Shown: positions 30,222 to 36,525 of the stretch, piece by piece
Position numbering within the stretch: position 1 is the first letter of the stretch
Layout: every line of letters begins with the position of its first letter
Assembly: GCA_017463935.1 (NCBI GenBank)
Contig: JAFUEM010000051.1
Coordinates: 1 to 36,639 of the forward strand
Length of the DNA stretch: 36,639 nt
Source: Kiritimatiellia bacterium
GTDB lineage: Bacteria; Verrucomicrobiota; Kiritimatiellia; RFP12; UBA1067
Direction of reading: 5' to 3'
Notes under the pieces: model-generated
The model's input: the letters and a program-made list of their open reading frames with translations, nothing else
Database searches by the model: none
What the model was told of the DNA's origin: nothing
Program-made: the position numbers and the translations under genes

Positions 30222-31139
30222 CTACATCAAGCGAAACATGCCAAGTCGGTCTCGGAAGATGCGCAGATACTCCTTTTTCGCATCCTCCGAAAGCAGCGAC
30301 TCCGCCACCATCGCCTCGACCTGCGGCAATTGCGTCTTGAACTCGTCCACAATTCCGCGCACGGATTTTTCATCCAGGCCATAGGACCTGCCAAGCGCCA
30401 CAAAGTCCGGCATGGAGTAGTATCCGAGCGACTCGAACTCCGGCGTCGCGAAGTCCGGATCGCTGAAAAACGACAGCGCCATAAACGTCAGGTCGCCCGG
30501 AAAGTGCAGAAGCGTGTTAAGAAGATCGTACGCCGGCGTCATGACGTAGTCGCCAAGTTCACTCTCGTAGACGGAAAAGTTCTTGAGATGCGCGTCGCCG
30601 TTTGCAAACAGGTAGTCGAAGACAATCTGGCGAAAGACCTTGGGCAGCTCAACGCGGGCAGCCGGACAGGCCATGCGGACGACGTCGGCCATCTCCTCGT
30701 AGCTGAAGTCGTACTTGTACGACTCCCCGTGAGTTTCTTCGCTTCGCCCCGCAATCTGGCAGAGATCCTCCTGCCGGACGGGTTTCCCGTCCCTTCGGTC
30801 GAACCGTCGCGTAAGGTACGCAAGCTCACCATCGGCGAAACGCACGCATTTGTTCTCTGCCGTCCGGATCCTGAAAAGGCGCGAGGCAATCTGCATCGTC
30901 AGGTTTTCGTTCGCCGGGATATCCGCTGCGAAACGCGAATGCGAATCCTCGGGCACGGGCTTGAGGATGAAGTCGCCGCCTTTGTCCACTACGGAAAACT
31001 CGCCGTCGACAATCGACAAGAGAACTTTTGACTGCACTCCCGAAATCGAGTTGCGCTGCCCCTTGCGAAGCGTCATCGGCAGACGCAAATCCGCCTTGGT
31101 GAAAGGCAGCACGTCTGGCACTCTACCGCGGACGGACAT
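30222..31139 (-). CDS. hipT: HipT-like toxin kinase (C-terminal part of a split HipA)
   Basis: 305 residues. The Gly-rich loop NSISGVQSK near residue 30-38 has the Ser-Ile-Ser form known from HipT, where both Ser can be autophosphorylated. Downstream: FILKPVP (ATP-binding Lys), FDYLFANGDAHLKNFS (catalytic Asp region) and TPAYDLLNT (metal-binding Asp). A complete Ser/Thr kinase toxin is therefore encoded, lacking only the N-subdomain 1, which is the separate upstream gene. Its start overlaps that gene by 17 nt. By analogy with E. coli HipT the target may be an aminoacyl-tRNA synthetase; this is inference. Confidence 0.85.
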   Translation of the reverse strand: MSVRGRVPDVLPFTKADLRLPMTLRKGQRNSISGVQSKVLLSIVDGEFSVVDKGGDFILKPVPEDSHSRFAADIPANENLTMQIASRLFRIRTAENKCVRFADGELAYLTRRFDRRDGKPVRQEDLCQIAGRSEETHGESYKYDFSYEEMADVVRMACPAARVELPKVFRQIVFDYLFANGDAHLKNFSVYESELGDYVMTPAYDLLNTLLHFPGDLTFMALSFFSDPDFATPEFESLGYYSMPDFVALGRSYGLDEKSVRGIVDEFKTQLPQVEAMVAESLLSEDAKKEYLRIFRDRLGMFRLM

Positions 31140-34609: not shown

Positions 34610-35737
34610 TCATTTCACCGCCATGCCGACCACGGCGGAACCGGGGTGCCGGAGGAACGCGGCGAGATAGGGCTTCACGTCGTTCGGCCATGTTGTACAG
34701 ATCCTCTGCGGCGTCCCGCCCGGCTTGGCGATGACGAGCTCGTTCATCTGCTCGTTGTTTATCCATCTACTACTTTCGCGAACCTTGACGTCAAAAGGTC
34801 CGCCGTATTCAAACCGCTGGCGCGCACCAATAGGGCCGACTCCAACAAAGGTTGTTCCGTAGCCGTGGTCGAGCGTTATCGTACGCTTGCCGAAGAGCAC
34901 GAAGATAAGCTGCGCGAACGGGAAAAGCATCACGAAGGCGAAAGCTATTTTCGCCGGAAGCGGTATGCCTGTAAACCTGAACCAGACCATCCAGGTGAAG
35001 AATGTCATCACAGCGACAAGGACAATCGCCAGCAGCCACCTGACGCGGCGCAGAACGACGGATATCCGCCCTTCCAAGTCGCGCGAAATGGACATTCCCC
35101 TCGGAGGCCTCCCGGCGAGCAGCGTGAAGTCGCGGCGCTCGATCCCCGCTTCTTCGGCGGCAATCTCGTCAGCGCTCTTTCCCGCGGGCTTTGGCGCGCC
35201 CGCCGTTACGGCGACTTCCTTCGCGGCCTTGCAGAGTGTGTAGATGATGTCGCCATCGGTCGAATCGTATATCACGCGTGGTCCGTCAAGATCGAACCTT
35301 GTCTTCACGATAAGGCGATAGGCAGTGTAGGTTCCGCCCTTGCTCCTGTGGCACACTACTTCGTCAGTGCCGATTTCACCCTTCATAGGAAACGAAAACT
35401 CCTTCGTGAAGCCGAATCGTCCGACGCCGGTGAACCGCGTTCCTCCCTCGCGCCGGAAGGTGAAGACCGTCCTCCCGAAAATCATCAGCAGAATCATGCT
35501 GGCGACAAATATCTCGGGGCCGAAAAGCATCAGCACGGCAAGGACCAGCTTGAAGCTGAACGGCTTTGTGAAAATGTCGATGACAATCATGTAGCAGCCG
35601 AACGACCAGAAGGCGAGCCAGAGCATCAAGAATATACAGGCCGCGCTCCAGTGACCGAATGTGACGCGAACAAACGGCTCTCCGTTCTCCGACCCGCGCT
35701 CGATCTCAACCCCGTCGCATGTCGCAATCTGTTTCAT
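34610..35737 (-). CDS. Membrane protein with internal duplication
   Basis: 375 residues in two similar halves. Each half has two hydrophobic segments (about 32-55 and 65-90; 232-252 and 258-282). Each is followed by an RTxxxxxxxGTxFxGVG pattern: RTVFTFRREGGTRFTGVGR and RTITLDHGYGTTFVGVGP, then a cytosolic domain. Unknown function; the fold could be a PH-like YdbT/bPH2 type membrane protein, which often carries such segments, but this is uncertain. The start MKQIATC was chosen over an upstream TTG. The promoter is a degenerate repeat (copy K). Confidence 0.7.
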   Translation of the reverse strand: MKQIATCDGVEIERGSENGEPFVRVTFGHWSAACIFLMLWLAFWSFGCYMIVIDIFTKPFSFKLVLAVLMLFGPEIFVASMILLMIFGRTVFTFRREGGTRFTGVGRFGFTKEFSFPMKGEIGTDEVVCHRSKGGTYTAYRLIVKTRFDLDGPRVIYDSTDGDIIYTLCKAAKEVAVTAGAPKPAGKSADEIAAEEAGIERRDFTLLAGRPPRGMSISRDLEGRISVVLRRVRWLLAIVLVAVMTFFTWMVWFRFTGIPLPAKIAFAFVMLFPFAQLIFVLFGKRTITLDHGYGTTFVGVGPIGARQRFEYGGPFDVKVRESSRWINNEQMNELVIAKPGGTPQRICTTWPNDVKPYLAAFLRHPGSAVVGMAVK

Positions 35738-35750
35738 CTTTTCAAAGCAA

Positions 35751-35785
35751 CACCATGCCAACCCAACGGCGGATGCGCCGCGCGG
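35751..35785 (-). repeat. Hairpin-promoter repeat, copy K (degenerate)
   Basis: Minus strand keeps CGCGGCGCATCCGCCG and GTTGG, but the -10 position reads CATGGT and the proximal arm has lost bases. Lies directly after the superoxide dismutase stop and before the 34610-35737 gene. Confidence 0.6.
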
Positions 35786-36487
35786 TCAGTCTGCCGCAAG
35801 GCGGCGGGAGGCGGCAGACCAGTCGAGGTGCTTTTCGACGACGGCCTTCGCGTACGCCGCGCGCTGGTTCTGCCAGTCGAGATAGTAGGCGTGTTCCCAG
35901 ACGTCGACGACAAGAAGCGGCTTCACGCCGGTGCGTCCGAACGGCGTGTCGGCGTTCGCGGTCGATTCGACGGAGATCTTTCCGTCCTTCGCGACGAGCC
36001 ACGCCCAGCCGCTGCCGAAACGCTTCACGGCGGCGTCCGCAAGCGCGGCCCTGCACGCGTCGAGCGACACGAACGCCGCGTCGATCGCCGCCATGAGCGC
36101 GTCCGACGGCGCGCCGCCCTTCCCCTCCGGCGCGAGCGAGTTCCAGTAGAAGTCGTGGTTCCACGCCTGCGCCGCGTTGTTGAAAATGGCCGTGTCGCCA
36201 GCCGCGCGCGCGGCGACGACGATCTCGCCGAGCGAGAGGCCTTCGTACTTCGTCCCGGCAGTCAGCCCTTTCAGCGTGTTGACGTAGCCGGCGTGATGCT
36301 TGCCGTAATGGAACGAAATCGTCCGGGCCGAAATCGTCGGCTCCAGGGCATTATCGGCGTAGGGGAGCGGCGGAAGTGCGATCTCGTTCATGGTTGTTGT
36401 TCCTTTCGGTAAGGTGTTGCAAGCCGTCGCCAGGGCCGCACAAGCTGCTCCGGCGCAGAACTGCCGTCGTGTCAACTTTGTCGTCAT
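35786..36487 (-). CDS. sod: Fe/Mn superoxide dismutase with optional export signal
   Basis: 233 residues from the long start. The mature enzyme is a standard Fe/Mn SOD: FHYGKHHAGYVN (metal-binding His), QAWNHDFYWNSL (second His), GSGWAWLV, and DVWEHAYYLDWQN (metal-binding Asp and His). The long form begins MTTKLTRRQFCAGAACAALA and has a twin-arginine motif and a lipobox-like LATAC, so it could be an exported lipoprotein. Its ATG is 9 nt after a TATACT box with -35 TTGCTG at 17 bp. A second ATG at 36391 (MNEIALPPLPY) has the Shine-Dalgarno GAAAGGAAC and would give a cytosolic SOD of normal length. Confidence 0.9.
   Translation of the reverse strand: MTTKLTRRQFCAGAACAALATACNTLPKGTTTMNEIALPPLPYADNALEPTISARTISFHYGKHHAGYVNTLKGLTAGTKYEGLSLGEIVVAARAAGDTAIFNNAAQAWNHDFYWNSLAPEGKGGAPSDALMAAIDAAFVSLDACRAALADAAVKRFGSGWAWLVAKDGKISVESTANADTPFGRTGVKPLLVVDVWEHAYYLDWQNQRAAYAKAVVEKHLDWSAASRRLAAD
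36389..36406 (-). promoter_or_regulatory. Internal Shine-Dalgarno and second start of sod
   Basis: GAAAGGAACAACAACC then ATG (36391), the same leader type used by genes at 6330 and 6874. Initiation here skips the 32-residue export signal. Confidence 0.65.
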
Positions 36488-36496
36488 TGCGGCAGT

Positions 36497-36525
36497 AGTA
36501 TATCAAAACTGCGCAGCGCCAGCAA
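36497..36525 (-). promoter_or_regulatory. sod promoter
   Basis: -35 TTGCTG (36525-36520), 17-bp spacer, extended -10 TATACT (36502-36497, preceded by TGA), 9 nt to ATG 36487. Confidence 0.6.

Follow-up and report, generated by a model that had tools for sequence, protein, structure and literature searches.

The question raised by this locus is whether a single superoxide dismutase (SOD) gene can supply enzyme to both sides of a membrane. It is encoded by the minus strand of the window, i.e. the whole stretch of 36,639 nucleotides analysed here (Kiritimatiellia assembly GCA_017463935.1, contig JAFUEM010000051.1), and its reading frame could be entered at two ATG codons (Table 1). Our reading, which we hold to be quite probable, is that one gene and one transcript with two starts would yield a Tat-exported long form as well as a cytosolic enzyme of 201 residues. 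Two forms from one transcript had been proposed in the initial annotation of this DNA, and the proposal appears to be supported by codon selection on the internal Shine–Dalgarno (SD) sequence in combination with amino-acid selection on the signal.

Table 1. Features of the SOD locus, in window positions
Feature	Position	Strand	Remark
Long-form SOD ORF, Fe-type, 233 aa with Tat-like signal	35786..36487	-	ATG at 36487, stop ends at 35786
Short form, 201 aa: a complete Fe-SOD of cytosolic type	35786..36391	-	sequence and domain matches
Codons 1-32: twin-arginine signal (TRRQF) and linker, weak lipobox ATA-C23	36392..36487	-	
Internal start codon ATG (Met33)	36389..36391	-	in frame, codon 33
Internal Shine–Dalgarno AAAGGA, doubling as Lys-Gly codons	36401..36406	-	9 nt before internal ATG
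-10 box TATACT	36497..36502	-	ends 9 nt before long-start ATG; predicted leader 0-3 nt
Weak -35-like hexamer TTGCTG	36520..36525	-	17 nt upstream of -10 box

The protein fits the Fe/Mn SOD family as judged from both domains (Sod_Fe_N, PF00081, E 1.1e-23; Sod_Fe_C, PF02777, E 6.3e-30; both pass the cut-off), and its best solved relatives are Fe-SODs. In an alignment to the solved Fe-SOD 3lio, the segments FHYGKHH, AAQAWNHDFYW and DVWEHAYY match the ligand and Gln regions, which we take to hold the His-His-Asp-His metal ligands and the Fe-type Gln. The predicted product of the internal ATG is a complete Fe-SOD of normal length, just as initially annotated. One SOD gene was detected in the host genome (85% complete), and a search of the same assembly for a desulfoferrodoxin-type superoxide reductase returned no match. 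The genome also encodes a Tat translocase (TatC and two TatA/B matches), and the 3′ end of its 16S rRNA is intact, GGATCACCTCCTT being present at two places with zero mismatches, which leaves an intact anti-SD. The SOD is adjoined by a putative membrane protein with no Pfam match (34610-35761, minus strand), and a HipA_C domain protein is encoded at 30222-31139 on the same strand (PF07804, E 4.7e-40). The membrane-protein gene, which lies downstream of the SOD, had no match among loci L001-L124 besides the window's own, and no operon argument can therefore be drawn from it.

The comparison covered SODs of the same genus, of the wider family and class, and of other phyla. It comprised 115 distinct genes, and a tree was built with 114; L033 (cut at a contig end) and L014 (partial) were excluded from the tree. 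The near relatives came from MAGs of Kiritimatiellae, Lentisphaerae or Verrucomicrobia, many of them from rumen, omasum or rectum. Of the 59 SODs scored as Tat-like, 35 carry a second, SD-led start located 6-12 residues ahead of the LPY motif, 22 lack one and two (L061, L065) are ambiguous and were left out of the dual count; dual genes were scored by an SD threshold, which makes this count, but not the codon test described below, partly circular. The scoring includes two decisions by hand: L135 was moved from Tat to 'other', and L039, missed by the motif script, was set to Tat. One gut Kiritimatiellae clade of 42 genes (SH-aLRT 88) contains 34 of the 35 dual genes, together with four short-only genes, two long-only genes and two doubtful placements; the long-branched L133 and L134 seem to be misplaced there. 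The initial annotation had proposed to check whether homologues conserve the two starts as well as the RR motif, and 34 of the 42 clade genes do so, the RR/RK motif having formed part of the definition of 'dual'. In the short-only relatives L052/L054, L008 and L011 the signal is lost and the SD and ATG are retained, with a TATAAT or TATACT box shortly upstream in L011, L052 and L054, and the long-only Tat-SODs L116, L117, L119, L122 and L126 branch directly outside the dual clade. The simplest history would be that an exported SOD gained an internal start and that a few lines later lost the signal, a direction that the tree leaves unfixed.

Elsewhere in the collection, one MAG (G291) carries two dual-start SOD genes, L104 and L125. 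A distant Omnitrophota SOD (L069, 3001-3699) combines a Tat-like signal, AAAGGA and an in-frame ATG, and possibly represents a second origin of the dual start, judged from these motifs and its place in the tree. The three genomes of its family (its own, one with a short-only SOD and one with no SOD) did not replicate this second origin. Two further genes, L231 and L234, combine a Tat-like signal with a Met close to the SOD body but lack an SD.

The strength of the internal start in the window gene was assessed against a genome sample of 448,795 bases, made up of the window and 60 of the 354 contigs (two truncated at 20 kb), with genes called by a simple purpose-made gene caller. The in-frame ATG 32 codons into the gene and its AAAGGA are present as the initial annotation described; the SD, which had been called strong, is moderate at -5.6 kcal/mol. 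An SD as good or better precedes 13.1% of 2097 internal ATGs in sampled host genes, and thus the window sequence alone does not lift the internal start beyond chance. A per-gene synonymous-recoding test likewise fell below 0.05 in only 1 of 35 dual genes (median p 0.149), so that the argument rests on the column test across related genes. In a rough survey of strong-SD internal ATGs at codons 21-56, signal-like genes showed no excess over other sampled genes (5/63 vs 7/118), and the dual start as a general feature of the host genome is accordingly unsupported.

The column test was applied to the aligned codons of 38 genes, either dual or short-only. At the SD site the glycine is encoded by GGA in 32 of 32 cases, while each of 14 other conserved Gly columns uses three to four codons; AAA encodes the SD lysine in 26 of 29, and seven other conserved Lys columns are 89-100% AAG. 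For comparison, the genome sample uses GGA for 10.7% of its glycines and AAA for 19.5% of its lysines. The same bias is visible when the signal peptides of the dual genes (n = 34) are taken by themselves: Gly is GGA in 29/31 positions of the SD zone vs 15/69 elsewhere (Fisher p 5e-12, a value that overstates independence since the genes are related). GGA is thus not preferred at gene starts in general. Where the residues change, to RG, KE or SG, the SD is retained as AGAGGA, AAGGAG and CAGGAG (TCA GGA GAA), respectively. The internal start codon is ATG in 36/38 genes and GTG in 2/38, and the two GTG codons (L030, L039) are preceded by the same AAAGGAG. In combination, these patterns indicate that the internal SD is under nucleotide-level selection within signal-peptide codons.

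It is this selection that renders very improbable the view that the long exported form alone is made and that the internal Met and AAAGGA are ordinary linker codons. The frequency of equally good SD sequences at internal ATGs fits such a view, as do six Tat-SODs of the same family that have no internal start (the five long-only genes outside the dual clade and L124). Linker codons as such, however, do not account for a GGA and AAA preference confined to the SD site, for an internal ATG that is replaced by GTG only, or for the retention of SD and ATG in four relatives without a signal.

If both forms are made, they could still derive from two transcripts, with a second promoter within the signal-coding region, or RNA processing, giving an mRNA for the short form. 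Promoters of other sigma factors or RNA processing would be compatible with the sequence. However, in none of the 34 dual genes did the stretch from about codon 7 to the SD contain a -10-like hexamer, so that one transcript suffices, and we regard a separate short-form mRNA as very improbable.

The case for the long form rests on the signal region, assessed here from motif and composition. Tat substrates carry a twin arginine followed by a hydrophobic stretch, and the predicted N-terminus of the long form, MTTKLTRRQFCAGAACAALATAC, contains TRRQF plus a hydrophobic stretch; RR or RK occurs in the clade's 34 dual genes. With the last six codons left out, dN/dS of the signal region was 0.37 (25 pairs) and 0.28 (24 pairs), values drawn from equal-length pairs at 2-35% difference only, which overlap and are not independent. 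The RR/RK pair is encoded by 16 codon combinations across 35 genes. A dN/dS of about 0.3 together with varied RR/RK codons argues that the signal region is translated. The long form would then be exported in a Tat-dependent manner, as suggested by its motif and by the translocase genes of the host.

The twin-arginine part of the initially annotated N-terminus thus stands with TRRQF, and the lipobox part is weak. A lipobox has Leu, Val or Ile at position -3; the window has A-T-A-C, without any of these, and the nearest relatives L002-L005 lack a Cys at the lipobox position. LAAC is found in L043, L044 and L047 only. The idea of a lipoprotein, which would call for a canonical, conserved lipobox, is accordingly weak.

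The long start itself is probably leaderless in the window, given a TATACT box whose distance from the ATG is as initially annotated. A promoter consensus scan needing 9/12 matches reported no promoter upstream of this start. In the genome sample, -10-like boxes 6-9 nt before an ATG were found at 20/516 in-frame positions near gene starts vs 1/478 out-of-frame positions (Fisher p 2e-5), an excess which shows that leaderless-type starts are a real class in the host genome; a TATAAT-type box at this distance from an in-frame ATG occurs in about 20/281 sampled genes (~7%). Other leaderless-type candidates on the minus strand of the window are at reverse-complement offsets 2073, 12466, 19691 and 25738. 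Of the 34 dual genes, 17 have a -10 box at 5-10 nt upstream of a long-start ATG and the other half are without it; in four of the latter (L007, L012, L034, L045) the long start is SD-led by eye. Consequently, the double start is the conserved feature and leaderless initiation a local route, and the leaderless assignment made initially would apply to the window, in whose genome such starts are a real class, and not to the dual genes as a whole. That the short form alone is made, the long frame being an untranslated leader open by chance, is the least credible reading; four relatives do have the short form alone, but the low dN/dS, the varied RR codons, a Tat motif in the 34 dual clade genes and in long-only relatives, and long starts led by either a -10 box or an SD all speak against it.

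In the preferred model of one transcript with two starts, some ribosomes would begin at the 5′-proximal ATG, probably without a leader in the host genome, and make the Tat-targeted form, which would be exported folded via Tat. Other ribosomes would use the SD-led ATG at codon 33 and produce the SOD of 201 residues without a signal, which would remain in the cytosol. Initiation at each start, Tat export and the ratio of the two forms are parts of the model that we infer. A more far-reaching version is tentative, and we consider it doubtful: in a family of gut Kiritimatiellae, selection would have built an SD into Tat-signal codons, letting a single SOD gene take over tasks for which other members of the class have two, and the pairing of a leaderless with an SD-led start would allow the cell to shift the exported:cytosolic ratio, since ribosome state under stress would affect the two modes differently.

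How other families of the class supply the two compartments was judged from 13 genomes read with at least two SOD copies, the copies being classed by eye as cytosolic or exported type. Eleven have one cytosolic-type copy and at least one of exported type; the exceptions carry two cytosolic-type (G079) or two exported-type copies (G167). Tandem pairs of a cytosolic-type and a Sec-type SOD gene occur in other families of the class (L139, L215, L216). Conversely, the window's own family includes five genomes (G270, G275, G288, G306, G271) whose sole SOD match is long-only, and the cytosolic form is therefore not obligatory. These comparisons suggest that the dual-start gene may replace separate cytosolic and exported SOD genes, a suggestion tempered by the five long-only genomes.

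Internal initiation is a familiar route to dual localisation in eukaryotes but, to our knowledge, seldom documented in bacteria. Here, comparative codon evidence, beyond the presence of a motif, indicates that an internal SD within signal-peptide codons is under selection, and the dual-start arrangement appears to be kept by selection across related gut and rumen species, as represented by their MAGs. Annotation usually chooses one start for such genes, and the location of the enzyme is then misassigned; the codon test could reveal further cases. The arrangement also bears on how a single SOD gene may serve anaerobes in protecting the two sides of their membrane.

Several components of the arrangement have precedents. 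According to a commentary (PMC10294624) on the work of Jensen et al. (2023), the Tli immunity protein of Enterobacter cloacae is made as a periplasmic lipoprotein and as a cytoplasmic protein via alternative starts. Tli thus resembles the SOD in that one bacterial gene serves two locations through alternative starts downstream of a signal sequence. It differs in protein and purpose, the two Tli forms having opposite roles, and the part of the commentary considered here mentions neither a Tat signal nor a leaderless start, in contrast to what is proposed for the SOD. E. coli mRNAs with a 5′-terminal AUG and a downstream SD-led start have likewise been tested (PMC4965119), and are similar to the SOD in that one mRNA is both leaderless and SD-led. 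In the account given there, however, the 5′ AUGs open upstream ORFs whose function is unknown, whereas the two SOD starts share a frame and would give enzyme isoforms. Leaderless 'TA-led' bacterial genes, in which a TATAAT-type box precedes the start codon by about 12 bp, are widely described (PMC3160421); they share this box with the SOD long start, but constitute a genome-wide initiation class rather than one arm of a dual start. Further counterparts are single-start Tat Fe/Mn SODs (e.g. L074, L079, L083, L087, L095, L100, L116), which belong to the same family of enzymes and carry an RRxF-type signal, but lack the internal SD-led start; some relatives within the class have a separate cytosolic SOD gene. 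The literature searched, mostly without subscription papers, showed no dual-start SOD whose internal SD is under selection at the codon level. Alternative starts, mRNAs that are both leaderless and SD-led, and leaderless genes are thus each known, and it is their combination in one SOD that appears to be new.
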